The notes beneath the pieces are model-generated. The model ran no database searches. It was not told where the DNA came from and saw only the letters and a list, made by a program, of their open reading frames with translations. Below, one piece after another: positions 21,181 to 44,055 of a stretch of DNA of 64,000 bases (its first letter is position 1; the number at the start of each line of letters is the position of its first letter). Source of the stretch: Romanomermis culicivorax. Taxonomy: Eukaryota > Nematoda > Enoplea > Mermithida > Mermithidae. The stretch lies in the NCBI GenBank assembly GCA_963922205.1, contig CAWUHX010000273.1:310001-374000 (forward strand). The letters are read 5' to 3'. The position numbers and the translations under genes were made by a program.

Positions 21181-21622
21181 TATCGCGTGTGGTGTGTCCC
21201 CAATACGGCGAAGCCCGCAACAGCGGGACTCAATACGACGAGTACTAAAAATTTATGTGCATTATGGGTCATTTATACTTGCATTTTTTAACGGAACCGA
21301 TCGCCAACAGCTTGAAACGTTCAGCCAGAAAATCAACTTTTGACAGGCTGTCCACCGTACCTGGAAAAGTCAGAGAATTTCAGAATGCACCTGAAAAACC
21401 TGGAAAAGTCAGGGAATTTCAGAATATTTCAACAGTTTTCGAGCATCTTGAATTACACCGTTTTCAAAGACTTTCCTCGAACTTTAATCTATTTTCTGAT
21501 AATTAATCGAAACACTACTAAATCGGCATAGTTTTTGTTTAAGCATTTTACAAGCTATGGCTTGTAGAATTTTAGTCCAACAAGCCAAAATATCTTGTCA
21601 GAATTTTTTGAGTCATGTGTTT

Positions 21623-22099
21623 TGTCACGACCTGTGACGCAGGTTCTTTCTAGTGAATACTATGCCTCAAGCAGAAAACGCAAAAAGTACACAACAACTT
21701 ATAGCAACCCTGTTGCTATATAGCCCAAAATAAGACAAAGACTTACTTGCAAGAAAAAATGTATCTTTTATTGTAAAGATAAAAGTAAAACTTGAAATTA
21801 AATAAAACTAAAATTGAATGAATGAAAATTATAACAAAACTACAATGATCATGCATATCGTATCGCGCCATATATATATGAAGCAAAATAAGATAAGAAC
21901 ATAGCACGACAAGTTGGGGTCGAAATACGAGCCTAGTACAAATGAGTTTTGGTCAAAATATGGCGGGTCATTACTGATAAGCAATGGTCAAAATATTTAC
22001 GAAAGCATAAATGGACTTTGTGGGTCGTAAACAAGTTTTGCATCAATCACTAAATGATTTACATATAAGAATCAAAGGTAACTTGTGTGGCACTTGACA
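21623..22099 (-). repeat. 3' LTR of retroelement 1
   Basis: 477 bp, bounded by TGTCACGACC and GGCACTTGACA in + orientation. It is nearly identical to 30661-31136. Confidence 0.93.
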
Positions 22100-22110
22100 C
22101 GTCCCCTCTT
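22100..22110 (-). promoter_or_regulatory. Polypurine tract of retroelement 1
   Basis: The minus strand AAGAGGGGACG abuts the 3' LTR, in the expected place for plus-strand priming. Confidence 0.7.
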
Positions 22111-22114
22111 AGCT

Positions 22115-24700
22115 TCAAACATCCTCGTTTGACGAATCAGCTTCTTCATCCAAATTGTCATTTCCAGGGAATGGGATGAATCGTAGCGGCTGCATCTTGG
22201 TCATTGATCCATAGGTTGCTCGTGTTGATAATTGATCAACTGCTTCATTCTTTTTGATCGTGGGCATGGAATTGTCTGATGGTTGCGATTCAACATTATT
22301 GGCGTGGAATTTCTTCGAGCGATTCACATGAATCGTTTCAACAACCTTCGGATTGTCACACAATTTAACCACAATGTTAGGATATTTCACACTGATTATC
22401 TTGTATGGTCCAACATAGATGGGCATCAACTTTTTGATCAATCCTTTTCGAACAATTTCTGATTCCTTAAGTATCAAATCGCCTACCTTGTAGTCAATGT
22501 CATCAGCTTTTCTATCAAATTGTGATTTATACCGTGCTTGTGATTCAATAATTTTATTTTGAACCACAGTCAATGCGTTTGTGAAGTGCTTTTTTACTTC
22601 CTGATCATACGTTTCCAAATCCATTAAATACATGGGTCGACTGTAATTCAATGTACTGTCAATTGGCAAGGATGGCTGTCGTCCATATACTAATTCAAAT
22701 GGGCTATAGCCTGTACTTTCATTGATATGAATATTTGTTGCAAATTTTGCATATGGTACATGCTCATCCCAATCAATCTGATTGCGATCAACATACATTC
22801 TCAGATGCGTGATAAGGGTCTGATTAGCTCTTTCTACTTCACCATTGGACATTGGATGGTACGCGGTGGTGTGCACTTTCTTGGTGCCAAAGAGGTTAGT
22901 CACTTCAACCATCAAATTTGACACAAAGTCTGATCCCCGATCAGATTGCAAAATTCGTGGGGCTCCATGCCTGCAAACAATTTCATTAACAAATAATCGA
23001 GCAATAGTTTCAGCCGTAATATCAGCAGTTACAAAAGCTTCAACATATTTTGTGAAATAATCTATGAACACCACAATGAATCGATTTCCAGCCTCTGTAG
23101 GCGGAAGTGGTCCAACACAATCAACTCCCAACCGGTCGAAAGGTCCAGAAATTGGAATAGGCTTCAATGAAGCAACAATTTTCTTCCGTGTAGGTTTATT
23201 TATCTGGCAAAGCTTACAGATTTTACAGTATCGTAATACATCTTGTCTCATGTTTGCCCAATAATATTTCTGTGAAATTAATTCCAAAGTTTTCTTGCCT
23301 CTATAATGACCACCAAATTCATCATCATGATGGGTGCTTATGATCAATTTCTGTAACACATCAGGAATCACTAATCTTTTCAAACCATTCTTAACAAAAT
23401 ACAAACGTGAATCTCTGACTATGTAATTCGAATTATGTTGATCATCTTTGATTTGATCAAATATCAAATTCAATGTTGGATCCTGTTTTTGCAGTAAACC
23501 TACATCAATAGGATCAGATGCAATCACATTAGAATAACCAAGATCATTACAATTAATCAAAGAGTTTGTTTCAATGTCAAAATATTTGTTTTCATCTGCA
23601 TTTGGTAATCGTGACAAACAATCAGCATTTCTATTTGCTGTACCTTTTCTTGGATTTATAACAAGTTTCACGTCAGCCAAAGCTAAACCCCAACGTGCGA
23701 TTCGTGGTAAAGGATTCGGTTTTTGTAACACTGATTTCACAGCAGTGTGATCCGTTTCCACATAAACTTCGTGTTCATACAAATAAGGACGAAAATATTT
23801 CACGAACTCAACTACTGCCAAAGTCTCAAGTTCAGTAATTGGGTAATTTTTCTCAGCAGACTTTAAACATCTACTTGCATAAGCCACAGGATGTTCAAAT
23901 CCATCACTATCAATTTGGCTGAGCACAGCACCAATTCCATTAATTGACGCATCCGTTTGCAATATAAACGGTTTTGTGAAATCAGGGTGTTTTAAAACAG
24001 GGGGTTGAATTAATTTTCGCTTAAGTAGCTCAAAAGCATTTTCATGTTCTATCGTCCAAACAAATCTTTTATCTTTTTTTAACAAATCAGTCAAAGGTTT
24101 CATGATCTGTGCACAATTTTTCACAAACTTTCGATAATAGGAAATCAGACCTAAAAATGATTTCAACATTTTTACATTAGTAGGTCGTGCAATCTTTTGA
24201 ACAGCTTCAATTTTCTTGGTATCTGGCAAAATACCGTCGGCTGTGATAACATGACCCAAATATTCGGTGGACTCATGACTGAATTTACATTTATTTAATC
24301 TCAATTTAATGTTGGCCTTTTTGAACCTGTGCAGCAATTCATCCAAACGATTCAACATTTCCTCATGAGTTTTTGCAAATACCAAAACATCATCCAAATA
24401 AACAAGACATGTTTGCCATTGTAGCCCAGACAACATAACATCCATCAAACGTTGAAATGAGGCGGGCGCATTGCATAAACCAAATGGGAGATAATTGTAC
24501 TCGAAAAGACCTATGGGGCTGGAAAAGGCAGTCTTTTCCTTGTCTTTTTCGTTGATCGGTATCGACCAGTAAGCATTTGCCTGATCCAATGACGTAAAAT
24601 ACTTCATACCATTCAAAGTATCAAGAATTTCATCAATGCGAGGCAAAGGGTAAACGTCCTTTTTTGTGACTTCATTCAATCCCCTAAAGTCTGTGCACAT
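22115..24700 (-). CDS. pol: RT, RNase H and integrase (retroelement 1)
   Basis: 861 codons. RT has MCTDFRGLN, TSLDQANAYWSIP, LPFGLCNAPASFQ and YLDD at 101-104. RNase H has QTDAS (D about 250), the TELETLAVVEF Glu, and ETDHTAV. Integrase has an HHCC zinc-binding head (HH...H, CKICKLC at about 492-498) and the catalytic triad D527, D587, E623 with 35 residues between the last two. The C-terminal GPY module (YVGPYKIISVKYPN) follows. Everything needed for reverse transcription and integration is present. The ORF ends 15 bp before the 3' LTR, so there is no downstream envelope gene. Confidence 0.95.
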   Translation of the reverse strand: MCTDFRGLNEVTKKDVYPLPRIDEILDTLNGMKYFTSLDQANAYWSIPINEKDKEKTAFSSPIGLFEYNYLPFGLCNAPASFQRLMDVMLSGLQWQTCLVYLDDVLVFAKTHEEMLNRLDELLHRFKKANIKLRLNKCKFSHESTEYLGHVITADGILPDTKKIEAVQKIARPTNVKMLKSFLGLISYYRKFVKNCAQIMKPLTDLLKKDKRFVWTIEHENAFELLKRKLIQPPVLKHPDFTKPFILQTDASINGIGAVLSQIDSDGFEHPVAYASRCLKSAEKNYPITELETLAVVEFVKYFRPYLYEHEVYVETDHTAVKSVLQKPNPLPRIARWGLALADVKLVINPRKGTANRNADCLSRLPNADENKYFDIETNSLINCNDLGYSNVIASDPIDVGLLQKQDPTLNLIFDQIKDDQHNSNYIVRDSRLYFVKNGLKRLVIPDVLQKLIISTHHDDEFGGHYRGKKTLELISQKYYWANMRQDVLRYCKICKLCQINKPTRKKIVASLKPIPISGPFDRLGVDCVGPLPPTEAGNRFIVVFIDYFTKYVEAFVTADITAETIARLFVNEIVCRHGAPRILQSDRGSDFVSNLMVEVTNLFGTKKVHTTAYHPMSNGEVERANQTLITHLRMYVDRNQIDWDEHVPYAKFATNIHINESTGYSPFELVYGRQPSLPIDSTLNYSRPMYLMDLETYDQEVKKHFTNALTVVQNKIIESQARYKSQFDRKADDIDYKVGDLILKESEIVRKGLIKKLMPIYVGPYKIISVKYPNIVVKLCDNPKVVETIHVNRSKKFHANNVESQPSDNSMPTIKKNEAVDQLSTRATYGSMTKMQPLRFIPFPGNDNLDEEADSSNEDV

Positions 24701-25524
24701 TCTATATTTTCCATTTTTTTACGAACTATTATAGCATTAGTGGACCAATCTGACTGACTTGGTCGAATAACCCCATTCTGCAGCAATTTCTGAACTTCAC
24801 TTATTATGATTTCCTTCTCCCTTGGCGAAGTTCGAAATGGCAATTTTCGAACAGGTTTGCTATCTCCAGTATCAATTTTATGCAAAAACAAATCAGTTTT
24901 TCCAGTATCCTTTTCATCCAAAGCATACAAATTAGGATATTTAGCCAACAAGCTAACAATATCTTCAGCTTGTTTATTTGACAACTGAGCACCAATATTC
25001 ACATTTTCTCTGATCCACTTTTTTCGATCATGTGGATTCATCATTTCTAACGTCACCACATCACTTTTTGTTTCAAACTTGTCACTAGAATACAGTGAGA
25101 TATTCCCAACTTGCATTCCCTCGTACAATTTTATAGGATAGGAATTTGTGTTCATCACCTGAAGTGGAATTCGATGATTTTTAACGGAACAAATTCCAGC
25201 GGCGAAGTAAACATCCTTTTGCATCACAGGTTCGAATTTCACACTTGAATTTTGCGAATACATGTTTGAAACAAGTCCATCAACAAAACAAATACTTCTA
25301 GGTGGAATATGTTTGTCTTTAACAAGTTTAACAAGTCCACGCATTTCAGGAGCATTGAATGCCATTCCGTCACATGGAATATGCAAATTCTTGAATTTTA
25401 CAGTGGAATTCTCATTGTGGAATTCAATGGTCTTAAAACGATATAGGAAATTCGTTCCTAATATAACGTCAGCAGTACAGTGTTTCTGAATGTGTACAAG
25501 AATTGTTTCACAAATATCCCGCAA
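24676..25524 (-). CDS. pol: Protease C-terminus and RT N-terminus (retroelement 1)
   Basis: 282 codons. It starts in the retropepsin C-terminal half (ADVILGTNFL, the conserved hydrophobic-hydrophobic-G motif) and runs through a linker. It then reaches the RT entry region: KYPNLYALDEKDTGKTD, LPFRTSPREKEIIISEVQKL and WSTNAIIVRKK. The last motif precedes RT block A. It overlaps both neighbours in different frames; the RT frame resumes at 24700 beside an A run. Confidence 0.85.
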   Translation of the reverse strand: MRDICETILVHIQKHCTADVILGTNFLYRFKTIEFHNENSTVKFKNLHIPCDGMAFNAPEMRGLVKLVKDKHIPPRSICFVDGLVSNMYSQNSSVKFEPVMQKDVYFAAGICSVKNHRIPLQVMNTNSYPIKLYEGMQVGNISLYSSDKFETKSDVVTLEMMNPHDRKKWIRENVNIGAQLSNKQAEDIVSLLAKYPNLYALDEKDTGKTDLFLHKIDTGDSKPVRKLPFRTSPREKEIIISEVQKLLQNGVIRPSQSDWSTNAIIVRKKMENIECAQTLGD

Positions 25525-27308
25525 TTCACAGTTATCATGGTTGAACCTTCAATAAGTATACTTGACCAATTAGCTGCTATTGGTTTTACAGTTGCAGGCA
25601 TCACTGTAACATTAGGCACCTTATCCAACACAGATGCATCAATCAAAGAAAACACAGCACCATAATCCAGCAAAGCTTTAGCAACAACACTTTGGTTCAA
25701 CAAAATTTGAACATGTGGGGTTCTCAGTCCACAACCAGCAACATTCACAGGTGTCATTCTTTGCTCTTTAGAAGCGCAAGTGATTTCTTGGAGCTCGTGT
25801 ACCTCGGCCATAGATTTTATTGAACTTTTCCATGATTCGCGGTTTCTATTTTTCATTCTTGACAAACGTAAAAGAGCACTTCCTAAATTGGCTCTAATGC
25901 TAGGTTTTTGCGAGATAATCACTGTCTTGGGGTGACTTTTACACTTAGTCAAATAGACATAGAAACCAAATCCAATTCCAAACAATACAAGCATGCAAAT
26001 TAAGAAATTTATCAACAATTGTATAGGCCCTTTTAACAAGTTACTTAGACCAGAAACCATATTTTTCTGTGAATTATCAATTACATGCTCCAAACTTGAT
26101 CCCGCTCCTTGAATGAAATTTGTCAGTCCTTTTCCTGCTCCAGACAACGTTTCAGAAACCACACCCGGTTGCAAAGACATTTGGGAAGTAAAATTTACTA
26201 GACGATGTGTCAATTGTTCAAGCATGTGAATTTTATAAATATATTGTTTTAAGAGCGCAAAATTTTCATATGGACTAGCAAACTCACTGTGAAACAAAAC
26301 AGGTGCATCAAATTGAAATATCTTTTGCCGTCTGTTCCATACAAGTTCAAGTGGAACCTTGCTGACATGCACTGGTCCAGAGTTAGTGACCCATTTACCA
26401 TTCTCGTAAAAGATACCAATGGTGTGATGTAAGCAATTCACTGTTTCGCTAAAGTAAACCAGATCTCTTGAACCTGGCGATACAAACATTATTTTTTTAT
26501 CCAGTTCAACAGGTAACAGCTTGTAACAAAAATTTCCAACCTTATAGTCATTAAAAACTTTCGACACTGTGACATTTTTGCATGTCCACACTGATAGAGC
26601 ATCGCCAGTAAACTGAGCAACAATATCAGTGCGTTGAAGAAACGCCCGGGCACCAAGCGTTGCATCAAAATTCAACAATTGCCATATCATATCCAAGTAC
26701 CTTTGAGTATGATGGCACAATTGCATCCATACAGCACGAAAATTATCAATTTCATTTTGTGTAATCCTATGTTCCAGGTAATTCAACTTAGCATTTACAG
26801 GATCAAAATCAGTGACATTGTGAACTTCACTTCCAGGTTCAACTATATGTTCAACGGTAAATTTTCGTCCATGAATTTTAATGACAATACCTTGATGAGT
26901 TTGGAGAACGTTTGTGAGATTACGTAAGCAGAGCTCATATTTTTCAGCTAATTCGACAGCAACTTGCAATTCATCAATTACTACATGCTTTCCACTAAGA
27001 ATAGCAATGTATTTTCCTTTAAATACAACGGGACACACCATTTCAAATTGAGTTTCATCCCAGATGATAGTTCCATCAAAATTAGTGCAGTGACCATCCC
27101 CAGCTTGACATCCGCCGACATTACCCAAATCAGTGAACAAATTTTTCCCATTCGAAGAAGCTGCTTTTCCTTCCTCAATAAAAAAATTTGTCACAGATTC
27201 ACAATAATCATGACAACACCACTTATAGTCAACTGTCAAAGAATTATTTGTCGTCCAAAATTTTAAAAAACTTTGTTTCGAAACTTGATCTTTGTACTGC
27301 TTCATCAA
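25458..27308 (-). CDS. Envelope-like glycoprotein fused in frame to protease (retroelement 1)
   Basis: 616 codons, opening without a convincing start (frame entered from the upstream ORF). Residues 1-430 are a Cys-rich ectodomain with several N-x-S/T sites. A segment at about 243-300 has the pattern C..V.V...CY.LLPV...FVSPGSRDLV...NC. Alternating amphipathic helices precede one transmembrane segment (about 431-453), then a basic tail. From about 530 the same frame enters a retropepsin-like region, LLDYGAVFSLID at about 546-557, where DYG stands at the usual DTG/DSG. The glycoprotein would mediate membrane fusion if functional. The fold is unassigned; the Cys pattern recalls glycoproteins of chuvirus-like negative-strand viruses, which I cannot verify here. 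Confidence 0.75.
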   Translation of the reverse strand: MMKQYKDQVSKQSFLKFWTTNNSLTVDYKWCCHDYCESVTNFFIEEGKAASSNGKNLFTDLGNVGGCQAGDGHCTNFDGTIIWDETQFEMVCPVVFKGKYIAILSGKHVVIDELQVAVELAEKYELCLRNLTNVLQTHQGIVIKIHGRKFTVEHIVEPGSEVHNVTDFDPVNAKLNYLEHRITQNEIDNFRAVWMQLCHHTQRYLDMIWQLLNFDATLGARAFLQRTDIVAQFTGDALSVWTCKNVTVSKVFNDYKVGNFCYKLLPVELDKKIMFVSPGSRDLVYFSETVNCLHHTIGIFYENGKWVTNSGPVHVSKVPLELVWNRRQKIFQFDAPVLFHSEFASPYENFALLKQYIYKIHMLEQLTHRLVNFTSQMSLQPGVVSETLSGAGKGLTNFIQGAGSSLEHVIDNSQKNMVSGLSNLLKGPIQLLINFLICMLVLFGIGFGFYVYLTKCKSHPKTVIISQKPSIRANLGSALLRLSRMKNRNRESWKSSIKSMAEVHELQEITCASKEQRMTPVNVAGCGLRTPHVQILLNQSVVAKALLDYGAVFSLIDASVLDKVPNVTVMPATVKPIAANWSSILIEGSTMITVNCGIFVKQFLYTFRNTVLLTLY

Positions 27309-27334
27309 ATAAACAGACCTACATTCAGCGTCAG

Positions 27335-30163
27335 TTACCGTAGTAACATAGGTTTCATCTCCAGTGACCCCTTTGATCCAAAAAATCCAGTGTTAGTACA
27401 TATTTTTCTGGTTTGAAGCACACATTTGTACGCATGTGAAAATTGAGGTTCACTTCTTGGCACAAAAACACTAATATTGACTCCATAAGGTTTATGCAAA
27501 TTTTTCATTGGAGACTGGTGGCAAACAACATTTTTAGGGATTTCCAAAGCATGTCCGGTTCTACTAGTTCCACATAACTGAAATTGTTTCATGGCATCAA
27601 CTTTATTAAAACCTACGTGTAAAAAAATTGGTAGCAGGACTGCACGCGCTATGCTAATGCTATACAATCTACAAATTATTATAATCAATAATTTTTTTAT
27701 CACGACGTGGCCTCGGCCGTCAACATTTCTTCGACCCGTCCAACATTGTTTATTCATTTTCGTCGCTCTTTTCATTTTCATCTGTAAACAACAATAAGTC
27801 AACAAAAATAAGAAAATCGATTTGACATAAATCCAAGTAGTACCCGACGAAAGGTCTCTGCCGGGCGTAGGCAGAGGCGATTCAGATTCGTCCTTATTAT
27901 CTTTTACAATTTTCGTGGCCGATTTATTGGCTGCGGCCGGACAAACATTATCAGTACCCCCATGTAACGGGCAAGCAAAACATATGCAAATTGCTGTATC
28001 GGCTAAACAACACAAACAAACATTTGTCTTCATTGCAACAACATCATCACAAATATTACGCCCAGCATAATTTTGTTCATGAATGACCTCTGGCTCCTCA
28101 AAAAGCCAAACAATATCAAACAATAGATCATCATCTTCGATGCTATCATTATAATTTAATTTTGATTTCAAATGTTCGGGGTTCATTTTCAGTTGATGAA
28201 AAGAACCAGATACGAATCCATTCATTGGAAACTCAGACACAAAATGATTTGATCCCAGATCATTAATCGTAAAGTTGCGATCTTCAATATCTTGCTCATC
28301 ACAAACTGATTGAGCTTCATCATCATACAAACTTATACATGTGTTTTCAAAAACTTTGTCAAGATATTCATTCAAAGCAGTAAAATCAGGATCATTCACA
28401 AAATCATCTGAACATGATTTTGAATGTCCAGTTTGCACACATAATCTTTGATAAATTTGATTATCAATCTCCAAATCACTGTCATGATTCAAAGTGAAAC
28501 ACAATGGAAAAGCCATGATCGAGTTCCTAGCTTGTACATTTTCGGCCTTTTCATAATTTCCAACAAAAATTTCCAAATCAACTGTGAACATGTCATCAAT
28601 ATCATCAACAAAATTATCATCAGGGTTCACAGTGGGATCAGAAAAAGAAACAAAATTTGGAACGTTCACACCAGATTCCGTATCAAATCCCAAATTCAAA
28701 TTTTCCATCCGTTGGTCCTCCTGACACTGACTTTCCAATTTTTGCGTGTCTATCTCAAAACCATCAAAACTTTTGTCATCAAAATTGTCAAGAAGATCTG
28801 TCGTTTGATTTTCCAAATTACCATCTGGAAAGGAATTTTCAAATTCAATTTTTGAAGTATCCACAATAGGAATTTGATCAACAAACAAATTTTCATCATT
28901 GGGACTACTCAACAACTTTTTTTGTACTGTGGGCAATAAGTTGACATTACAAAGTGAAAATTGGGTCCCATTTTGTTGGCGTCTTTCCAAAAATCCATGA
29001 TCATCAATATCTAATAATTGATCCTCAGAGGTAAATTGCTGAAACTCAGAATTATTATTGTTGATCCCAGATCTATTATAATTCGAATTTCGAGGGAGCA
29101 AATTTCTATTTCCCCAATTCTGGTTTTGTCGATTATCAACAAAATTACCTTTCCGTTTGTACTGGCTATCCCGAAGGTGATTCGATCGACTCTTCACTGT
29201 ACAACGGTCTGGATGATGACCTGGAAACGAGCAATGGCGGCACGGTTTTGTGCAATCTCGCGCTATATGGCCCCAATCCAAACAAGCGTGACACTGCCGG
29301 GATTCGGCTCGATTTGGGTTTTGGGTTGGTGGCCGTTCGAAAGCGATCCATTTAAAAACCGAGGGTTTCGGTGGTTCATTCAATTGTTGCGTTTTCGACA
29401 TCCCATCAACGGCCAATTTTAAGATTCCTTTTATCGACTTTAGCTCGCTTTGTAACTCCGCAACTGTTTGTGTCATATCTGAATTAGAATTCATTCCAAT
29501 ATTTGAGGCTACATTCAAATTAGCATCATCCCTAAATATTTGCGATTCAGTATACCTTGCAGTTTTTGCTGCCTCATTCAAAGTACCAAATTCTCTATAT
29601 TTCAAACCCTCATAAATGTTTGATCTTACACCTCTTACAAATATAGGTTTCAAAATTTGCTCACGCGCCTCGTCTTGCAAAGTGGGATATGCTGATCTAG
29701 CCAATTTTCTGAGCTTATCCACATACTCTGTGACTGATTCATTTTTCTTTTGTTTTCTATCATACAGCAACTGCTGATGCAAATCACTATCCCTTCCGTC
29801 AGGATAAAGTTCCTTGAACCCTTGAACTAGTGCCTGAAAGGTCACTGGATCCAAATCTCTCTTCAGATCATGTAATGACGCAAGAGCTGGACCAATTAGA
29901 TTTGATTCTAAATAAGCAATTTTGTACAATTCATCATTATCCCCTATGCCTTGCAAAGTCATAAAATGTGTCAATTTTTCAATCCAATCCGAAAAAGTTT
30001 CACCAAAATTACCAGAAAATGGTGGAGGGGGATTAAACATTCGAAACGGATTAAAACGAAGAAATGATTGTCTCATATTGGCCTCATTATTGCCTTCCGT
30101 TTCCTCAATTTTCAATTTCAAATTTTCAAGCTTATCCTTGATGGGTTTAGTAGCTTCTTCCAT
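27335..30163 (-). CDS. gag: Gag fused in frame to the start of the glycoprotein (retroelement 1)
   Basis: 942 codons. Residues about 45-235 form a capsid-like region with the Ty3 gag pattern (SDWIEKLTHFM, RKQKKNESVTEYVDKLRKLA). Two CCHC zinc knuckles follow at about 291-304 and 308-321. Next comes a long acidic, low-complexity segment (about 350-780). Then, without a stop, two hydrophobic segments (about 800 and 845), a likely signal or membrane region, and a Cys-containing start of the glycoprotein ectodomain (FQLCGTSRTGHALEIPKNVV). The frame then changes near 27.33 kb and the ectodomain continues in the next ORF. Typical Ty3 gag is about 300-450 residues, so the length reflects the fusion. 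The in-frame gag-glycoprotein link is also suggested in retroelement 2. Confidence 0.85.
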   Translation of the reverse strand: MEEATKPIKDKLENLKLKIEETEGNNEANMRQSFLRFNPFRMFNPPPPFSGNFGETFSDWIEKLTHFMTLQGIGDNDELYKIAYLESNLIGPALASLHDLKRDLDPVTFQALVQGFKELYPDGRDSDLHQQLLYDRKQKKNESVTEYVDKLRKLARSAYPTLQDEAREQILKPIFVRGVRSNIYEGLKYREFGTLNEAAKTARYTESQIFRDDANLNVASNIGMNSNSDMTQTVAELQSELKSIKGILKLAVDGMSKTQQLNEPPKPSVFKWIAFERPPTQNPNRAESRQCHACLDWGHIARDCTKPCRHCSFPGHHPDRCTVKSRSNHLRDSQYKRKGNFVDNRQNQNWGNRNLLPRNSNYNRSGINNNNSEFQQFTSEDQLLDIDDHGFLERRQQNGTQFSLCNVNLLPTVQKKLLSSPNDENLFVDQIPIVDTSKIEFENSFPDGNLENQTTDLLDNFDDKSFDGFEIDTQKLESQCQEDQRMENLNLGFDTESGVNVPNFVSFSDPTVNPDDNFVDDIDDMFTVDLEIFVGNYEKAENVQARNSIMAFPLCFTLNHDSDLEIDNQIYQRLCVQTGHSKSCSDDFVNDPDFTALNEYLDKVFENTCISLYDDEAQSVCDEQDIEDRNFTINDLGSNHFVSEFPMNGFVSGSFHQLKMNPEHLKSKLNYNDSIEDDDLLFDIVWLFEEPEVIHEQNYAGRNICDDVVAMKTNVCLCCLADTAICICFACPLHGGTDNVCPAAANKSATKIVKDNKDESESPLPTPGRDLSSGTTWIYVKSIFLFLLTYCCLQMKMKRATKMNKQCWTGRRNVDGRGHVVIKKLLIIIICRLYSISIARAVLLPIFLHVGFNKVDAMKQFQLCGTSRTGHALEIPKNVVCHQSPMKNLHKPYGVNISVFVPRSEPQFSHAYKCVLQTRKICTNTGFFGSKGSLEMKPMLLR

Positions 30164-30637
30164 GGCTTTTTTTTACAGTCTTTTCTAAAGCCCTAGCTTC
30201 AGCAACATCATCACCAGGCATAGTTTTAAGCTTAGTTTGTAACCTAGTACGACCCAAAAATTCAAAATCTGCTTTAGCTTCTTCAACAATCTGCCTAAAA
30301 GACTCGTATTCACTAGTTCCAAATTTTTCACTCGTTTTGGAACCCTGTTCAAAATATAAACAACAGAATTAAAATCCCAGATTTCAATTGAGAATGGGCA
30401 AAAAGAAATATCAGATTTCTGAACAAACAAGAAGTTTTGAACCCTGTTCAATCAAACACAATGAATTAAAATTCCAAATTCTAATTCAACAAACAAAAAG
30501 AAATCTTTTGATTTCCAACAAAATAATTTGTTTTAAACCCAATTCAACCAAAACAATGAAATTAAAATCCCAGATTTTAATTTAAACGAAGGAAATGAAA
30601 TTCCAGATTTTACACAAATTGCTCAAGAATGAAGAAA

Positions 30638-30655
30638 GTCCTGTCAGGCTCGCCA
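30638..30655 (-). promoter_or_regulatory. Primer binding site of retroelement 1
   Basis: Five bases inside the 5' LTR the minus strand reads TGGCGAGCCTGACAGGAC. TGG complements the tRNA CCA end. I could not identify the tRNA. Confidence 0.55.
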
Positions 30656-30660
30656 AAACT

Positions 30661-31136
30661 TGTCACGACCTGTGACGCAGGTTCTTTCTAGTGAATACTA
30701 TGCCTCAAGCAGAAAACGCAAAAAGTACACAACAACTTATAGCAACCCTGTTGCTATATAGCCCAAAATAAGACAAAGACTTACTTGCAAGAAAAATGTA
30801 TCTTTTATTGTAAAGATAAAAGTAAAACTTGAAATTAAATAAAACTAAAATTGAATGAAGGAAAATTATAACAAAACTACAATGATCATGCATATCGTAT
30901 CGCGCCATATATATATGAAGCAAAATAAGATAAGAACATAGCACGACAAGTTACGGTCGAAATACGAGCCTAGTACAAATGAGTTTTGGTCAAAATATGG
31001 CGGGTCATTACTGATAAGCAATGGTCAAAATATTTACGAAAGCATAAAAGGACTTTGTGGGTCGTAAACAAGTTTTGCATCAATCACTAAATGATTTACA
31101 TATAAGAATCAAAGGTAACTTGTGTGGCACTTGACA
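30661..31136 (-). repeat. 5' LTR of retroelement 1
   Basis: 476 bp, pair of 21623-22099. The promoter and poly(A) functions are inferred from LTR biology; no motif was decisive. Confidence 0.93.
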
Positions 31137-34003: not shown

Positions 34004-35650
34004 TGTCAAGGAGTTAAAAATTTGTATAATTTTTGTGTAAATTTTCGTGAAAATATATATTCTAGTTATTCCTCATTTTCTCGTCACATGTGTAACGAAG
34101 AGTGAAATTTGATAAAATCTCATTTTCCGAGTTATGTAAAAAATATGTTTTTCATTTCTGTACAAATAGGTTTTCTTTCACTGCAATTTCAGTTACTTTC
34201 GTTAAGTACTTTATTTTCGTCTTTTTCGCTGCAATTAGTTACTTTCGTTAAGTACTTTGTTTTCATCTTTTTTTATTGTTTAACCGTCATTCCGAGAAAC
34301 ACCAAAAATCTACACACACATAATAATTACAAAAATATCCAACAATGGGCCTGCGCAAACAGCAGGGCCCTTTTTCGATAATCCACATAAAATTATGCAA
34401 AAGCCCAAATGTATGCAAAACACAAGCTGTGCATGCTCACACGTGACAATTTACAGTAACCACACGGTATGGCACATGTGCACTGGGATGGGCGGTCCAA
34501 GAGACTGCCCAATTTTGATTGGTTCCACGACTACGTCCATATGGATAGTCAACACCAGAATCGAGGTGATTCTCATTCTTATTCTTTGACGACTTTCAGT
34601 TCTCACGCTTACGTTTTGGGAGCCATTTTTTCGAGCGTAGGGTCGTCCCTACAACACTGTAATTGTCGACTTTTTCAAGGGCCAGGGAACCTGCCCTCTG
34701 GCCAACGACAATCGGATCGTCACTCATTGCTCACCTTTGGGGCTTTTGCATCGCATACATTATACCCATGGATGTGCAACTTTTCTCTCACCTATGGGAA
34801 CGACGGACTTTTCTTAACTTGAACCATAATTTCCTGTAAGTATTCAATTTGTTATTGTTTTTAAATATTAAAATATCCAAAAGCCCCCCTTTTCGCATTT
34901 CAACGTCACATCCATGTGACACATGTACAGTATTAGAAATGCATTAGTATTCTCTATTGTTTTCGAGAGTCTCGGTTCCTAGTTGGAAACCAGACTTTTT
35001 TTCAAGTACTTTGTTTTTGTCACACATTTTCACACTCGTAATTTACTCAGCAGGAAACGAAAAGGTTGACACATTTAAAAACAAAAAACACTTTTCCTCG
35101 AAATACAAAAATGGGTTAATATGTTTTGAACCCTCTGACAATTTGGAAAATAATTTACGTAGCAGGTCCTACTGTACTCTAACGCACAGCAGGGCTTCCA
35201 GAACCACGCCCTAAGAACATGGATGTTGACTCCCAAAATGGAGAAGATTCAGTTTTTTTGATTTTACGTGATTACACTAGCTGCTTTGATTGGTTTTTTC
35301 TCCACTTCACTCACTCGCATCTTACAGTCCGTGGGACTTTGAAACAATTTGCGTTTTGGTTTGGGGAAATTGTGTTGCCCATATTCCTTATGGGATTCAG
35401 GCTTCAAAACCAGCCGTATCCCTGCTTATCAAATTGTCATCCGTTACCCGAAAACGACCGTTATTTTCAACTAATTCGTGTCAACCTTTTAGGTCCAATT
35501 GCTACGCGCCACCCTCGCACATCTTTGTCACGCCTTCATACGTATCCCCTTATCCACCCTGTTTACTGTAAGTTATCAAATAAATAACAAAAACCCTAGT
35601 TTTAGATTGTTGCTACCTAAATCTACAGTACTTCCCGAAAACTCAAGAAA
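34004..35650 (+). repeat. 5' LTR of retroelement 2, split by a solo LTR
   Basis: 34004-34090 and 34926-35650 together align with 43315-44055, except for about 70 extra bases near 35420-35490. The right boundary is approximate. A TGG-starting primer-site candidate lies at about 35658. Confidence 0.8.
34091..34921. mobile_element. Solo LTR inserted in the 5' LTR of retroelement 2
   Basis: 831 bp, beginning TGTAACG and ending GTGACA. It is flanked by a 4-bp duplication CATG (34087-34090, 34922-34925). The 3' LTR reads straight through at this point, providing the empty site. It has no coding region, as expected after LTR-LTR recombination. Confidence 0.82.
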
Positions 35651-35726
35651 TAAATCTTGGTGACCTGATAACAGGGGGTAAATTTAGAAAAACAATGAAC
35701 CTTTTTGAATTTTAGCTGGGGTATAT

Positions 35727-37574
35727 TTGATTGTCCCCCTCTTTCTAAAAAAACATATTTTTGTCTTTTTTCGATTTTCTGATAATTGGCATGGAAAAAT
35801 CAATTCGATTTCTCCCCTTGCAAAAACTAAACAACTTTTCGATTCCCAGAAACATTTTTTTGGTTACATAACTGGATTTTGGTGCATACCAAATCTGGAA
35901 AGTAAACGTGCGGAAACATTAAGTGAAACATTTTTGCACATTGAACAAAAAGCTAAAAGTCAAATTATCGGAAAAATGCCTTTTCAAAATCTGGACCCGC
36001 TTGGTCATGTTGTTCAGGATGTGTTAGCTGCAGTCTTGGATCAAAGGCTTCAAAATCTTGAAGCCCAAATGAACAGAAAAGCAGCCCATATGGAATAAAC
36101 CATGAATGAAATTCAAGTAAATCACTTACGTGGTGACATGCTTTCTGCCAAAATTAACGATTTTCCATTCTTTTCTGGGCTGCCCCATGAAAACTTTACC
36201 AAAAAACTCGAAAAACAGATGATTTTGAAAGGGATAAAAAACGAAGACAATCAGTTGGAAAGAATTTTTTTGTTTCACCTTAAAGGTGATGCCCTCACGA
36301 AATTTGAAAATATTTCGAGTTCCGAGGATCCACCCACTGACTATGAACAATATAAAGTTGCTTTGGAAAGGGCATTCCCCAACCAATGGGACGCCTTGTT
36401 TCACAGACAAAGTTTAAAAGATCGAAAGCAAAAAAGAACAGAAACAGTAACCGCATATTTCAATGAACTTGAAAAGATGGGAAGGCTCGCCTACCCTACT
36501 CTTGACACAAATGCAAGGAACACAATTCTTGAATCAATTTTTTTAGATGGGCTTCAGGCGGACGTCCGAAAAGCCCCAAAATTTAAACATTTCACTAATC
36601 TGAATCATTTAATTGAAGAAGCAACTTTCATGGAACAGGAAATTTTGCGGCATGAGGCCAACATGGTCTGTTCCCCTTCGGCAAGGTACAACATTGGGTT
36701 GCAAGAGCCCGTTCTTGCTTTGTTACCCTCAGGAAGTAATACAAATAAACAAATTGATGAAATAAATGAAAAATTGAATAAATTATGCATACAGATGCAG
36801 CAAAATGTACTACAAAAGTGACATGCGAATAGAAAATCCATCACGTGTCATATGGGTGGCAAGGCTGGTCATTTGGCCCATGAGTGCAGGTCTAGACTGT
36901 AATGCGAAATTTGTGGGCGAAATGACCACTCAAAAAATGACTGCAAATCAAAATGCTTTCACTGTAAAAAAACGGGACACAAGAGCAGATTTTGTAGGCA
37001 GTTGAGAGTTGCTGAATGCTACACATGTAAAGAAAAAGGGCACATGAGCAGCAGTTGCCCCCAAAAATCAAAAAACGCCCAAAATAACATTCAAGGGTGC
37101 CCAAATGGGTACCCTCTTGATGGTGATGACCCTGATTTAGTTGCAGAAGTCAATAATTCATCGCAACATTGCTTTTTTGTAGGGTCTTTATTATCAATAA
37201 TGTTTGACAAGGGGTCTGAATCACTTGACTATGATGATTCACCGACTCCAACACCCAACTTAGGCATGGGCCGCCCGGCAAGTCAATCGCCTGACAGCCG
37301 CCCACCAACTACACCATGCTCGTCATGTTCCGACGACAAAATGGAAATAATACCAGTGGGCAAAAAAGAAAACCACGCCCCACAATTGGAAACACCACAA
37401 GTTGATGGCAATGGGCCTGATGAAAAACCAAACCTGGCCCTGCCGTCCAAAAGTATCAAATTCCAAAAATCAAAAGACAACCCAGGGTTTCATTATTGGA
37501 ACCCAGCTCTTTGGCGCCAAACGTGGCCACATTTCGAGAGGAAGCTCTCCCAAAACCTATTTGGAGAGGTCTAG
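35727..37574 (+). pseudogene. gag: Gag of retroelement 2, broken by in-frame stops
   Basis: One reading frame carries the whole region but is cut by stops near 36098 (TAA), 36821 (TGA), 36902 (TAA) and 37574 (TAG), with no frameshift. An N-terminal part (35727-36095) precedes the capsid-like region at 36102-36818, which has QSLKDRKQKRTETVTAYFNE, parallel to gag of retroelement 1. Zinc knuckles follow: one degenerate (CHMGGKAGHLAHEC) and three intact (CEICGRNDHSKNDC, CFHCKKTGHKSRFC, CYTCKEKGHMSSSC), against two in retroelement 1. A Pro/Ser/Asp-rich linker leads towards the glycoprotein. Confidence 0.85.
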
Positions 37575-39596
37575 GTAAAATTGATCTCAACAAAAGAAAC
37601 TCGCATGCACATACAATAAAACAAAAGTTTTTTCTGGGTGTAGCAGAAATGACCGTTATTGCCCTTGTAGCCAATGCAAAAACAAATGCATGCAGGCCCG
37701 ACGAAAGGCCGTTAAGGCAAGCAAGGCACAATAAAATAAATAATTCTTGCAGGGATTTTTTTTCATTTGTGCATACTATCGTGTGTATTTTTGTGCCCTG
37801 TGGTGGGCCGACAAATAAAAACATTTCAGCTTTGTAGAACATCGACCAGTGGGCATGCCATAGAAATCCCAAAAACTGTTGCATGTGTTAGACCACCTTC
37901 GAGTGAAAATCTGACTCTTGTCACAGGACAGGTCTATACACCTTTGGCCAAACCCAAACATACCACAGAGTTCAAGTGTACCCTTCAGACCCAAAAAATC
38001 TGTACACAAGTTGGGTTTTTCAGCTCAAAAAGTATAACTTTTGACCAAATTTCCATAAAAATTTTGACCCCTTTTGGATGCAGAATAGTAATGGAAAGGA
38101 AAACCTTCCAGGGTCAGTCTGTGAATGAAACTACCTCCGGCATTTGGTCAACAAACAATAAACTTGACCTACAGTATAAGTGGTGCTGTTTAGATAACTG
38201 TCAAACAGTAGAAAATTTCATTGTCGAAGAGGGACAAGTCGCCTCTTGGGACGGTAACAATCTTTTTAGCACCCTTGGAGATTTGGGTGGTTGTAAAGCA
38301 AACGCCAGCCATTGCTTCATGGCGGATGGTGTCGTAGTGTGGGATGAAACCCATTTAGAAAAAATTTGTCCATTTGAACTCAAAAACTCGTACAAAATCA
38401 AAGTAAGTGGGTCCCACATGGTCATTGACTATATGCAAGCAGCATTTTTTATTACAAATAACTCATTTGGGCACCCGAATTGCCCAGAACTCAAAAACGC
38501 ACTTTACACTGAGCAGGGCATTGTGGTTCCGTTTGACCCATCAAATCTTACCCAAAGTGAATCCAGTAAACAAATAAGCGCCCTTTATACGTATAATAAT
38601 GCGGAGTTTGACCCCAAAAATTTAAAACTCAATTTTCTTGAAGAAAAAATATGTAATTTTGAACTGCAAAGTTTTCAAAATGTGTGGAATGAACTTTGCC
38701 ACCAAGCCCAGCGCCATCTGGCCTTGATATGGCAGTTGTTGCACCTGGATGCAACCCTTGGAGCCAGAGCTTTTCTCCAACGAACTGACATCACAGCAGA
38801 ATTTACAGAAAACGCCATAACCCTATGGCCCTCTCATCAGATCAATGCGTCTGTGGTGTATAAAAATCACAAAATTAATGGGACTTGCTTCAAAAAACCT
38901 TCTGGTGGTGGTCAATAACAAACTCATGTTTGTGACCCCGGGTGGAACTGACCTCATAGAAGAAAGTCAGAAAGTCAACTGCAACCATATGCACGTGCCC
39001 CTATTCAAAATCAATAACACTTGGTCCAGTAAAACCAGAAAAACCCATGTTAGCAAGATCCTACTTGAAGTGATCTGCACTGCAACTTCACAGTATTCCA
39101 TTTCAATGCACCACCCCTTTTTCACGATTAGCTGGCCGGGGTATCAACCAGTCTGACTTTTTTGATACAATATATGTACAAAACGCACAACCTGGAACAA
39201 GTTGTGGACAGACTAATCAATTACACGTCAAAAATGTCTCTTTGCTCCAGCTCCATGTATGAAGTTCTCTCAAGGAGCGGCCAAGCTCTTGGTCACACCC
39301 TTTCAGGGGCCGGTCAAGCCCTAGAACACGTAATTGTCAGTACCCAACAAGGTATGACACAGGATTTAAACAATTTGCTCAAAGGACCCCTTCAAATGTT
39401 GATTAATTTGGTGGTCATAGTTGCAACTATAGTTGGAAGCCTCTATGTGTGCTTTTGGTTAAAGGGATGCTTAAACTTTGCAAGACAAACAAGAAACATC
39501 ACATATGAGCTACCAACAAGACCTCAAAATCGATCACAAATGCAACCCCTACCACCCAGTTTGGGTCAAGCACTCTTAGAACTGGCAAATATGTAG
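37575..39596 (+). pseudogene. Envelope-like glycoprotein of retroelement 2, broken
   Basis: Homologous to the glycoprotein of retroelement 1. A signal-like hydrophobic stretch (about 37740-37800) is followed by FQLCRTSTSGHAIEIPKTVA, the Cys-rich ectodomain (to about 38910), and MFVTPGGTDLIEESQKVNC in another frame (about 38928-39156). 39162-39596 then encodes amphipathic helices and a transmembrane segment LINLVVIVATIVGSLYVCFW. Shared landmarks with element 1 include the WCC and C-rich block, LIWQLLHLDATLGARAFLQR and SGAGQALEHVI. It is broken by at least two frame changes, and a TAG at 39594 separates it from the protease in the same frame. Confidence 0.75.
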
Positions 39597-39659
39597 AGTT
39601 TCCATACTAGCCATAGATATATTGCAGTACCAGATTACCAAGCTCCTTCAGCCCCAAAA

Positions 39660-40025
39660 TTGGAATCCATAAACAGCATTAAACTACATGATCAAAGAAC
39701 CCCTCACCTAAATGTAATTGTAAATAAGCAGGTTCTAGCTAATGCCATGGTTGATTGTGGAGCTACTTACACGATAATCGACAAGAAAATCACAGATAAG
39801 GTTGAAGATATTGAAATTAAACCAACAACCATTGTGCCCATAGCAGCCAATAATTTAGGTGTGGAACTTGTCGGTTCGACTTTCATCACTGTGCAAGCAG
39901 GCCCAGAAAGTCAAACCCTGTTAGCGTACGTACAAGAAAATTGCGCTGCTGACCTACTTCTGGGTTCAAACTTCTTGTTTCGGTTTACAGAATGGCCAAT
40001 AAACAATGAAAAAAGCTTTGTGTGA
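39660..40025 (+). pseudogene. pol: Protease of retroelement 2
   Basis: Retropepsin-like: AMVDCGATYTIIDKKI carries DCG where DTG/DSG is usual, and ADLLLGSNFLFRF supplies the C-terminal motif. It is in the same frame as the glycoprotein tail upstream and the RT downstream, separated from each only by single stops (TAG at 39594, TGA at about 40023). Confidence 0.75.
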
Positions 40026-40094
40026 CTCGGAAGCACGACCATCCCATGCACTGGCATAAAGTATCATCCCTTACGAAGATGTGGTGGTATTCAT

Positions 40095-41729
40095 TTGAAT
40101 CAAAATCTCATTGTGCCCCCCTGTTCCGTTACCCAATTGTCCGTTCCAGTTTCAGACATGTATAAAGGCATGCCTGTGGTTCAGCTTGAACCCAGTGACA
40201 CCCTAGTTGAAAAAGCAGGAGTTTGTTTTGCAGCTTCAGTTTCACCAAATATTGAGGGCAGAATTCGAATTTCGGTTCTGAATCCCTTAACGGACGAAAT
40301 AAAGCTTTTTCAAAATACTTGTGTGGGTAGAATGAAAAATTTCATCTCAAAAACAGAAACAATTCACAGCATACAACTTGAAGAAGCAACAACCAAAAAC
40401 ATAAATGAAAAACAAGATTTCAAGAAATGGTTGGTTGATAATATCAATTTGACAAATACTGACCTCAATGAGGAAGAGAAAAACATGATTGTGGAAATTC
40501 TAGCCCAATATCCCAACCTGTATGCTACGAATAAATCCGAGGCGGGTCGTACTTCATTAGTTGAAGACACAATTGATACACAGGGTAATACACTAGTGAA
40601 ACGACCCCTTTTTCGTACTGTCCCCAAAGAAAAAAAAATAATTCAAGAAGAAATCAACAAACTTGAGCAAAGTGGGATCATCAGCGAAAGCCAATCCCCT
40701 AGGTGTACTAATACGATTTTAGTGCGGAAAAAAGATGGCAGTTACCGTCTCTGCATCGATTTCCATGGGTTGAACAATGTGACTAAAAAGGACACATACC
40801 TCTTACCTCGCATTGACGACATTTTTGATGCCTTGCGTGGTATGCGTTACTTCACAACCCTTGATCAGGCCAATGCATATTACACCATCCCCTTCGTGGA
40901 AGGCGATTGGGAAAAGACTGCATTCAATTGTCCCTCGGGCCAATACCATTTCAATTATTTGCCCTTCAGCCTATGCAATACGCCGGCTAGTTTTCAATGC
41001 CTAATGGACGTTCTTCTGTCGGGCTTACAATGGCAGACATGCCTTGTTTACCTGGATTACGTTCTTATTCTTGCAAAAACTCACAAAGAAATGCTTACAC
41101 ACCTAGATGACATTTTGGGCCACCTGAACAAAGCTGGCCTTAAACTAAGGCTTAGAAAATGCAAATTCTCACAGTCATCTGTCCAATATTTGGGACACAT
41201 CATAAATGAAACCGGAATATTGCCTGATCCTCAAAAAGTTAAAACAATTCAAGAAATTCTGGCTCCAAAAACCATCAAAGAAGTGAAATCATTCCTAGGG
41301 CTACCATCTTATTATCAGAGGTTCATTCGGAACTGTTCACAAGTTGCTAGCCCTTCGACAAAACTTCTCAAAAAAGATGCTATTTTCCATTGGGGCCTGG
41401 ATCAACTAAAAGCATTCCAAACGTTGAAAGCACACCTCACATCAGCACCCGTTTTGCATCATCCAAATTTTTCAAAACCATTCATACTCCAAACGGATGC
41501 TTCCTTTTTAGGTGTGGGAGCCATCCTTAGTCAATACGGGGATGATTCCTTGGAACATCCCATTGCTTTCGCTAGCAGAGAGTTGAAACTTGCTATTTTG
41601 GACCCTATCTTTTTCAGCAGGATGTCATTATTCATACTGACCACACAGCAGTTAATGCGGTTCTCACAAAAGAGAACCCCAATTTGCGGATCGTTTGTTG
41701 GGGACTTGCTTTGGCAAGTTTCAAATTGA
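40095..41729 (+). CDS. pol: RT and start of RNase H (retroelement 2)
   Basis: 544 codons. RT blocks are RLCIDFHGLN, TTLDQANAYYTIP and LPFSLCNTPASFQ. The catalytic block reads YLDYV, where the second Asp of YLDD is lost, so RT is inactive as written. RNase H begins (QTDASFLGVGAILSQ), but a deletion removes the segment around the catalytic Glu, and the frame changes before TDHTAV near 41.64 kb. Confidence 0.85.
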   Translation: MNQNLIVPPCSVTQLSVPVSDMYKGMPVVQLEPSDTLVEKAGVCFAASVSPNIEGRIRISVLNPLTDEIKLFQNTCVGRMKNFISKTETIHSIQLEEATTKNINEKQDFKKWLVDNINLTNTDLNEEEKNMIVEILAQYPNLYATNKSEAGRTSLVEDTIDTQGNTLVKRPLFRTVPKEKKIIQEEINKLEQSGIISESQSPRCTNTILVRKKDGSYRLCIDFHGLNNVTKKDTYLLPRIDDIFDALRGMRYFTTLDQANAYYTIPFVEGDWEKTAFNCPSGQYHFNYLPFSLCNTPASFQCLMDVLLSGLQWQTCLVYLDYVLILAKTHKEMLTHLDDILGHLNKAGLKLRLRKCKFSQSSVQYLGHIINETGILPDPQKVKTIQEILAPKTIKEVKSFLGLPSYYQRFIRNCSQVASPSTKLLKKDAIFHWGLDQLKAFQTLKAHLTSAPVLHHPNFSKPFILQTDASFLGVGAILSQYGDDSLEHPIAFASRELKLAILDPIFFSRMSLFILTTQQLMRFSQKRTPICGSFVGDLLWQVSN

Positions 41730-43287
41730 ATATCCAGCCCAAAAGGGGCTCGGCCAACAGAAATGCAGATGCAGTTTCCAGGTTCCCATTAAAAGATGTG
41801 GAGCGGGCATTTGATATAGAAAATTTGGAAACTAGACCAGAATTAAATAGGCTAAACATCGAAAGAAAAACTCACTCGAGCACAGCCACACAACTTGAAA
41901 ACATAATTTTTGCCCTTGGATATGGGCTTGAAAATGAAAGTGATGAGAATCAGGAAATAACCAAAAACTTGGTGGAACTTCAACTTTCTGACCCTGACAT
42001 GCTGCAAATAATTAATGAAATTAATTTCTACATCATCGAAAATAATCTTTTATAGCAAAAATTCGAAAATGAATATAAAGTCTACGTTCCAAAATCATTC
42101 TGCACAGAAATTTTCAAATCGCATCACGATAGCAAATTTGCAGGCCATTTTTCCTCCAGGAAAACTTATGAAAATGTGCGACAACGATATTTTTGGCCCC
42201 AAATGCAGAAATTTGTGGAAGAATATTGCCAAACTTGTCAAAAGTGCCAATTCAACAAGCCCACTAGACATGCGATCAAAGCTGATTCGATTCCAGTTTG
42301 GGCTTCACAACCATTTGAATGAGTGGGATTGGACTGCATGGGTCCCAACCCCATTTCCAGCAATGGAAACTGTTATGTTGTAGTTTTTATCGACTACTTT
42401 ACTAAATACATAGATGCCTTTGCTACCCCTAACATAACCTCACAAAGAATTGCTTCTCTTTTTGTTGAAAAAATCGTTTGTCATCATGGAGCCCCAAAAA
42501 TCATACATTGTGACAGGGCTTGGGATTTCACATCACAACTTTTTACAAATATCACAAAGTTTTGCAACACGGAAAAAGTAGACACTACTTATCATCCCAT
42601 GGGTAATGGGGAAGTAGAAAGGTGCAATCAAACCCTCGTGACCCATATTCGCATGTACGTGAATGAAAATCATTCAGATTGGGATGATTATCTTCCCTTC
42701 GCAGTATTTCTTACAAATGTCCATGAAAATAAAAGCATTCACCTTTTGAACTTGTGCATGGGCGAAAACCCTTGCTGCCATCTGATGCAGCCTTCAGTTT
42801 CCAGAAGTCACCCTATATGGTTGATCTGAGCAAATATGCTAATGAAATAAAAAATCACTTGTCAAAAGCATTTGAAAATGTACAGGCTATTCTGTTGGTT
42901 TCACAAAATCAGTGCTCCGAACAGTACAACAAAAAATCACACAATGGAAAATATAAAACTGGAGATTTGGTCCTTTGGGAAACTAGACTCATTCGTAAAA
43001 ATCAGAGTCCTAAGCTTGTCTCACAGCAGCACGGACCATACAAAATGGTCAAAGTTGCATACCCAAATGTCGAAATCGAGCAGCGGGATACACGGAAAGT
43101 TTACAAATTGCATGTTAATGACACCATCCGGTTCCATCCCCGCATGTCTGCCATCCATTGTACCACATCATCTAACCAGTCCAGCAAAGTCAAATGTGTC
43201 AAGCATCATCAACATTCAGTCGGCTCAATTTGGCATCATTGCTTCAGTCAACACAGCCTCAAAACCTCACAACCAGGTTGCGATTGA
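41684..43287 (+). pseudogene. pol: RNase H C-terminus and integrase (retroelement 2)
   Basis: Frames 41684-42055, 42015-42383, 42323-42829 and 42754-43287 join end to end as one integrase region. The RNase H end is RGSANRNADAVSRF. Integrase residues are visible in MGLDCMGP (D), HCDRAWDF (D) and NGEVERCNQT (E). A C-terminal GPY-like module (GPYKMVKVAYPN) follows. At least three frame changes make it non-functional. Confidence 0.82.
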
Positions 43288-43303
43288 GGACGTTCGCCTT
43301 TGT

Positions 43304-43314
43304 AAGGAGGGGAA
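43304..43314 (+). promoter_or_regulatory. Polypurine tract of retroelement 2
   Basis: AAGGAGGGGAA sits directly before the 3' LTR start TGTCAAGG. Confidence 0.8.
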
Positions 43315-44055
43315 TGTCAAGGAGTGTAAAAATTTGTATATTTTTTGTGTAAATTTTCGAAAAAATATATATTCTAGTTATTCCTCATTTTCTCATCACA
43401 TGTACCATATTAGAAATCCATTAGTATTCTCTATTGTTTTTGAGAGTCTGGGTTCTTAGTTGGAAACCAGACTATTTTTCAAGTACTTTGTTTTTGTCAC
43501 ACATTTTCGCACTCGTAATTTACTCAGCAGGAAACAGAAAGGTTGACACATTCAAAAACAAAAAACACTTTTCCTCAAAATACAAAAATGGGTTCATATG
43601 ATTTGAACCCTCTGACAATTTGGAAAATAATTCACGTAGCAGTTGCTACTCTACTCTAACGCACAGCGGGGCTTCTGCAACCAGGCCCCAAGAACATGGA
43701 TGTCAGTTTGCAAAATGGAGAAGATTCAGTTTTCTTGATTTTACGTGATTACACTTGCTGCTTCAATTGGTTTTTTCTTTACGCGACTTCACTCACTCAC
43801 ATCTTACAGTCCGTCGGACTTTGAAACAATTTGTGTTTCAGTTTGGGGCAATTGTGTTGCCCATATTCTTTACCGGATTCAGGCTTCAGGCCTTCTATGT
43901 CCAATTGCTACAGGCCACCCTCGCACATCTTTGTCATGCCTTGGTACGTATCGCCTTATCCACCCTGTTTACTGAAAGTTATCAAATAAAAACAAAATTC
44001 CCAGTTTTAGTTTGTTGCTACCTAAATCTACAGTAATTCCTGAAAACTCAAGAAA
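43315..44055 (+). repeat. 3' LTR of retroelement 2
   Basis: About 741 bp, matching the two parts of the 5' LTR. The right end is set by loss of similarity after CTCAAGAAA. Confidence 0.82.

Follow-up and report, generated by a model that had tools for sequence, protein, structure and literature searches.

The 64,000-nucleotide stretch of the Romanomermis culicivorax genome analysed here (contig CAWUHX010000273.1, positions 310,001 to 374,000; the whole stretch is called the window below) carries on its minus strand a long terminal repeat (LTR) retroelement, element 1, whose parts follow one another as LTR, gag (capsid and two CCHC knuckles), glycoprotein, protease, reverse transcriptase (RT), RNase H, integrase and LTR. 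An older relative on the plus strand, element 2, has the same gene order. To judge by sequence, the two belong to a Ty3/Metaviridae-type LTR lineage, spread through the genome of this mosquito-parasitic mermithid nematode, that holds its env between gag and pol, within one reading frame in many copies. We observe this gene order in subfamilies that have diverged from one another, and numerous copies show a continuous frame from gag through the glycoprotein and its anchor into pol. The features of element 1, with open reading frames (ORFs) measured in amino acids (aa), are listed from its 5′ to its 3′ end.

21,623-31,136, minus strand: element 1, from LTR to LTR
21619..21622 (left) and 31137-31140 (right): target site duplication GTTT, 4 bp, read from the sequence
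30661..31136, minus strand: 5′ LTR, from pairwise LTR alignment
30638..30655, minus strand: stretch just inside the 5′ LTR, starting TGGCG, whose motif we take to be primer-binding-site-like
27335..30163, minus strand: 942-aa ORF with capsid, CCHC knuckles, acidic linker, signal-like segment and N-terminal ectodomain in a single frame
29201..29293, minus strand: two CCHC zinc knuckles, aa 291-321 of the 942-aa ORF, from a motif search
27781..27782, minus strand: tentative acceptor-like site TTTACAG, rank 4 of 452, with an ATG directly after it, upstream of the signal-like segment
27635..27691, minus strand: hydrophobic signal-like segment, aa 825-843 of the 942-aa gag ORF, from hydropathy
27371..27592, minus strand: N-terminal ectodomain, aligned to element 2 at 49% identity
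25458..27308, minus strand: 616-aa ORF with fusion-type glycoprotein, anchor, basic tail and most of the protease, from PF24664 and alignment to element 2
25962..26018, minus strand: transmembrane anchor of 19 residues, aa 431-449 of the 616-aa ORF, mean hydropathy 2.51
24676..25524, minus strand: ORF with the protease end and RT start, from alignment to element 2; the sole Pfam match, to A9 protease, is weak and sub-threshold
22115..24700, minus strand: RT, RNase H and integrase ORF, 861 aa, from Pfam
22100..22110, minus strand: polypurine tract AAGAGGGGA plus two bases, adjoining the 3′ LTR, read from the sequence
21623..22099, minus strand: 3′ LTR, from pairwise LTR alignment

Element 1 bears the marks of the Metaviridae (Ty3/Gypsy): LTRs with TG...CA ends, a target duplication within the 4-6 bp range, a purine tract, and the pol order protease-RT-RNase H-integrase, which element 2 shares. 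In a PDB sequence search, the closest solved protein to its RT-RNase H-integrase ORF is Ty3 Gag-Pol (E 8.6e-120). The preliminary description of this locus had placed the integrase directly ahead of the 3′ LTR and called the LTRs near identical; indeed, the ORF stops 15 nt ahead of the 3′ LTR, and the LTR pair agrees at 473 of 478 positions (99%, 1 gap included). Element 1 is a young insertion. The same description had judged the arrangement recent and presumably working, and here only the first half survives for element 1 itself, which is a broken copy: alignment to element 2 places frame breaks in the ectodomain, the protease and RT, and a further break is probable near the gag start, judged against P0006, an R. 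culicivorax gag model with 98% identity over 47% of the query. Long unbroken frames do occur in other copies. Seven further copies in the genome match the element 1 glycoprotein ORF at 95-97% identity.

The 942-aa ORF scores at or just above the cut-offs of the Ty3 capsid, PNMA and Retrotrans_gag Pfam models, and its C-terminal end is already glycoprotein: the signal-like segment and the N-terminal part lie there, and the remainder lies in the next ORF. That 616-aa ORF matches the Monjiviricetes_fusion family (PF24664, mononegavirus/chuvirus type) at 66.3 bits (E 1.9e-18; curated cut-off 27) and gives, in addition, a weak Pfam match to Borna G, below cut-off. The PF24664 match is not due to chance, because its score is far above the curated cut-off and our own profile, built from relatives, matches within the window elements 1 and 2 only and no shuffled fragment. 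The ORF encodes one anchor, five sequons N-terminal to it and a basic tail, and aligns in frame to element 2 from ahead of the anchor into the protease. A glycoprotein with an ectodomain, N-glycosylation sites and one anchor thus does sit between the gag knuckles and the protease, as had been proposed. Its standing as a separate gene needs revision: the location is right, but the coding sequence is split over two ORFs, with the N-terminal part in the gag ORF and the protease in frame. The reading frame shared by gag, env and pol goes beyond what had been claimed. Across the linker and signal segment of element 1, 480 codons are open, a run with a chance of about 2e-17 by composition. PDB sequence searches with the glycoproteins returned no relevant match, and scans of NCBIfam and Rfam returned nothing informative.

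Element 2 is the second witness to this layout within the window, and its parts are as follows.

34004..44055, plus strand: element 2, older relative with the same gene order; LTR pieces 90-94% identical
34004-35650, plus strand: 5′ LTR, interrupted
36099..37574, plus strand: gag with an internal stop
37740..39596, plus strand: glycoprotein, broken mid-way, with signal-like segment and anchor; 38-49% identity to element 1
39597..43287, plus strand: protease, RT, RNase H and integrase (broken)
About 43314-44055, plus strand: 3′ LTR

By tblastn the two elements are collinear, with identities of 27% in gag, 38-49% in the glycoprotein, 36% from anchor to protease, 36% in protease-RT, 61% in RT and 39-43% in RNase H-integrase. 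The gag, both ends of the glycoprotein, the protease and RT of element 2 share one frame, with one shifted patch inside the glycoprotein and later shifts in pol. Since the 392-aa piece of its glycoprotein matches no Pfam family by itself, PF24664 included, the identity of this glycoprotein rests on alignment to element 1. The 5′ LTR is interrupted at 34092-34919 by about 830 bp that do not match the 3′ LTR.

Comparison of the two elements indicates how the glycoprotein has evolved. Differences at codon positions 1/2/3 amount to 0.43/0.27/0.63 in the main glycoprotein block (260 codons), near the values for RNase H-integrase (0.42/0.29/0.64); other glycoprotein blocks give 0.41-0.49/0.33-0.35/0.54-0.65, and gag is less constrained (0.55/0.43/0.63). 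Synonymous differences at identical residues are alike in the glycoprotein (61 of 115) and RT (95 of 173). We infer that the glycoprotein has been in this lineage for as long as pol and is under constraint as a protein. Such constraint bears on a reading that we consider highly improbable, in which the domain is a passenger kept for particle anchoring or some other non-fusogenic role, its envelope function having been lost. Fusion activity is predicted from family similarity only, which leaves room for this reading; on the other side, the signal-like segment, conserved cysteines, sequons and anchor have all been kept, under protein-level constraint like that on pol.

We then turn from the window to the genome. 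The assembly searched has 595 contigs and 359,112,060 bases; for R. culicivorax, the published v2 assembly is of 359.1 Mb in 595 scaffolds, with a quality value (QV) of 54.97, and RNA-seq of the species was produced as well (PMC10879605). Because of this QV, the frame breaks of element 1 are more likely real mutations than read errors, and an assembly artefact was rejected as the source of the layout, given the same QV and the presence of copies on many contigs. The PF24664 search scored 68 matches of 2,320 candidates, and all 68 are above cut-off, with none in 14 control genomes. A search with the element 1 glycoprotein ORF reported 73 matches, with 71 of 4,387 candidates scored, so that the counts are lower bounds and describe the best-matching copies. 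A single frame leads from the ectodomain through the anchor to the protease in 65 of the 73 scored matches, free of stops in 42 of these 65, and for 19 of the 73 the match is free of stops and the open frame around it spans 2,400 codons or more. On contig C180, around 404-17640, three PF24664 matches occur at an exact spacing of 8,365 bp, as expected if elements were arrayed in tandem, head to tail, or as the result of an assembly effect.

In another reading, the whole segment would be an alternative intron, excised to yield Gag-Pol and retained to yield Gag-Env. The same frame on both flanks means that excision could preserve the frame, and in one R. culicivorax gene model, P0001, gag is joined to a glycoprotein piece, so that predictors do put introns here, gene models being weak evidence. 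Yet none of the twelve top-scoring acceptors of element 1 lies just ahead of the protease, the nearest (26,286) falling within the ectodomain; the best acceptor of element 2 (39,991) is at the protease end; and a tail-to-protease frame that stays free of stops in so many copies is hard to square with a spliced-out segment. We regard this alternative as improbable, and the acceptor positions in elements 1 and 2 do not support an excised intron.

The gag side was sampled as 1.9 kb upstream of 60 copies, which form 21 clusters at 85% identity and were drawn from the 68 matches outside the window that begin near the query start. In half of the pieces (30 of 60), all 633 codons of the glycoprotein frame are free of stops. 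A CCHC-type knuckle is present in that frame in 34 of 60, without an intervening stop in 25, and a hydrophobic peak lies within 220 residues ahead of the glycoprotein match in 58 of 60, at 107-129 residues in 55 of them. A capsid was found in 9 of 13 subfamily representatives, its main match being in the glycoprotein frame in all nine. Because of these gag-side, knuckle, capsid and frame counts, the long open frames most likely cover gag, env and pol. Selection is suggested as well by ungapped comparison of 30 open copies, which yields 25/24/111 differences at codon positions 1/2/3 in the signal zone (653 nt alignable) and 32/15/84 in the linker (493 nt alignable).

Approaching the lineage from pol gives a complementary picture. 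A protease-RT piece used as query produced 138 scored matches of 6,128 candidates, from which 46 were taken, all outside the list from the glycoprotein search (40 near the top rank and 6 from further down; one contig-end, one partial and one duplicate match were left out), and the 2.2 kb upstream of each was examined. When these relatives were checked for lack of the glycoprotein, 43 of the 46 proved to carry it upstream of the protease, the piece being in the protease frame in 34 of 46; the check agrees with the matches that run into the protease in the search from the glycoprotein side. No glycoprotein was found in the 2.2 kb upstream in three relatives (L082, L086 and L125), which are decayed, interrupted or truly env-less. 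A one-off glycoprotein insertion is therefore rejected: element 2 has the same order, genome copies are many, and nearly all of these relatives carry the glycoprotein. Nor is env found after pol, as in errantiviruses and retroviruses; in both of these window elements and in the 43 relatives, it lies ahead of the protease. In one subgroup (L118, L119, L121-L124, L126 and L127), about 300 extra residues separate the glycoprotein from the protease, and several of its matches are part of open frames about 3,000 codons long.

In a homology search, 5 of the 7 proteins found are from R. culicivorax. P0007, a 1,207-aa ORF from another source, on a 7,955-bp JGI contig, has a gag region 34% identical to that of element 1 (E 5e-60) and combines, in one frame, this gag region, a loose CCHC-like knuckle, a hydrophobic segment and a PF24664 match at 27.4 bits (cut-off 27). 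P0002, a distant relative on a 1,796-bp contig, has a D/E-rich stretch recognized by eye, a hydrophobic segment and a PF24664 score of 17.7 bits, which is below cut-off; no pol was seen for this protein. Residues 473-476 of the P0002 ectodomain read RGKR, which we take to be of the furin-like motif type; a search for this pattern in pieces of elements 1 and 2 found none. No relatives were confirmed by one scan of genome contigs or by four-query scans of IMG/VR.

The remainder of the window holds a third Ty3-type element (52767-59120, minus strand) with gag, protease, RT, RNase H and integrase ORFs, its RT about 38% identical to that of element 1. It has no glycoprotein match, and there is none elsewhere in the window beyond elements 1 and 2; an env located elsewhere was rejected on these grounds. 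Four consecutive ORFs of 216-427 aa lie at 47473-51437 (minus strand), and the three that were scanned match nothing in Pfam at E 0.01.

We propose that an ancestor of the lineage probably captured a fusion glycoprotein of the Monjiviricetes type, placed in frame between gag and protease, kept it as an envelope and came to express it by a polyprotein route, to which the single frame shared by gag, env and pol points. Unspliced RNA would be translated into a Gag-Env-Pol polyprotein, and its internal signal-like segment would direct the ectodomain into the endoplasmic reticulum (ER). Signal peptidase would split Gag from Env, the single anchor would leave the basic tail and protease-RT-integrase in the cytosol, and the cytosolic protease would release Pol. 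The product would be an enveloped particle with Pol delivered behind the Env anchor. These cleavages and this topology are predictions, set beside the order, frame and codon-level constraint that we observe. Whether the lineage depends on a single membrane-threading Gag-Env-Pol polyprotein, with Pol packaged behind the envelope anchor, is in our estimate evenly balanced; such a mode of expression and packaging would, to our knowledge, be unlike that of any known retrovirus or errantivirus.

Several observations weigh against the proposal. A fixed 1:1:1 output of Gag, Env and Pol would be unusual. Among the 60 gag-side pieces, the knuckle is solely in another frame in 11 and was not found in 15, the latter partly because it lies further upstream in element 1's own subfamily. 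Capsid and glycoprotein divergence correlate modestly across 9 subfamilies (rho 0.66, p 0.053). The linker of element 2, a decayed copy, is closed in the gag/glycoprotein frame by several stops, and UAG stops stand at both of its junctions (37572-37574, gag end; 39594-39596, glycoprotein end), as decay or as a read-through signal. The P0007 ORF stops ahead of any anchor, and no pol was seen for it. Finally, 7 of 15 subfamilies have a candidate splice acceptor ahead of the signal segment, an arrangement compatible with a spliced env mRNA, and splicing may add to the polyprotein route or replace it.

The splicing alternative, the main rival, is retrovirus-style: Env or Env-Pol would be made from a spliced mRNA, with an acceptor that precedes the signal segment by about 90-125 nt; unspliced RNA would supply Gag and Pol; and the one-frame layout would be a by-product or a second route. 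The acceptor-like site of element 1, fourth in rank, is immediately ahead of an ATG, and that of element 2 (rank 7 of 480) is two bases ahead of one. The interval 85-130 nt upstream of the signal segment beats 71 of 71 control intervals (15 of 18 clusters kept), but it was picked after inspection of the data, and the control intervals overlap. Sites scoring at least 0 there are in phase 0 in 7 of 7 cases, versus 23 of 93 elsewhere (15 subfamilies), yet 8 of the 15 subfamilies lack a good acceptor site. GTAAGT-like donors occur in some leaders only. There is no conserved in-frame Met near the signal segment; the product would still continue into Pol in copies without a stop after Env; and the linker has been kept open in half of the gag-side pieces examined. 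We view spliced Env as possible though doubtful, and the polyprotein route as the probable one.

In retroviruses and in Ty3 elements with an env, gag-pol-env counts as an almost invariable order, and the usual picture of env capture is that of a gene added at the 3′ end. Here, a fusion protein of the negative-strand-virus type appears in frame in the middle of Gag-Pol, and does so in numerous copies that belong to several diverged subfamilies. Confirmation would mean that the gag-pol-env order is not a constraint, and the setting of Gag:Env:Pol ratios, the threading of a polyprotein through the ER and the packaging of Pol via an envelope anchor would become testable. An env in the middle would change how the element produces and sorts its proteins, and if our reading is true, the expression and packaging strategy has been kept through long divergence, the gag-env half being present in P0007 as well.

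The nearest known systems each share part of this design. Errantiviruses and other env-carrying Ty3/Gypsy elements (Metaviridae) have in common with the Romanomermis elements a Ty3-type pol, LTRs, a 4-bp target duplication and a captured viral glycoprotein; their known members have env after pol, whereas in Romanomermis it is ahead of the protease and in frame with gag and pol. Polyproteins of the flavivirus/alphavirus type, from RNA viruses, line up capsid, internal signal, glycoprotein and anchor in a similar order, but Romanomermis has a reverse-transcribing element with Pol behind the anchor. In Troyka elements, Gag-Pol is mostly encoded as one protein and env is absent (PMC12440569), and the env of Roo, Tas and Cer-7 lies downstream of the polyprotein (PMC7642597). 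TelKA of bdelloid rotifers is likewise an LTR element with a fusion protein captured from negative-strand RNA viruses, a paramyxovirus F-type protein encoded by ORF3, downstream of pol (PMC5408684). Dezordi 2020 describes chuvirus glycoproteins captured by BEL/Pao elements (Anakin, mosquitoes; PMC7642597); Anakin is also an LTR element with a captured chuvirus-type glycoprotein, but it belongs to BEL/Pao, whereas the closest solved protein to element 1 is Ty3 Gag-Pol. The titles and abstract openings surveyed announce no env between gag and pol, and novelty is to that extent provisional. Dezordi 2023 describes two nematode endogenous viral elements (EVEs) of Jingchuvirales glycoproteins (Event 3, Charybdivirus-like) and reports no clear evidence for Gypsy capture of such glycoproteins (PMC10084718). 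These EVEs are of a related glycoprotein type, and in the Romanomermis lineage the capture is both clear and old.

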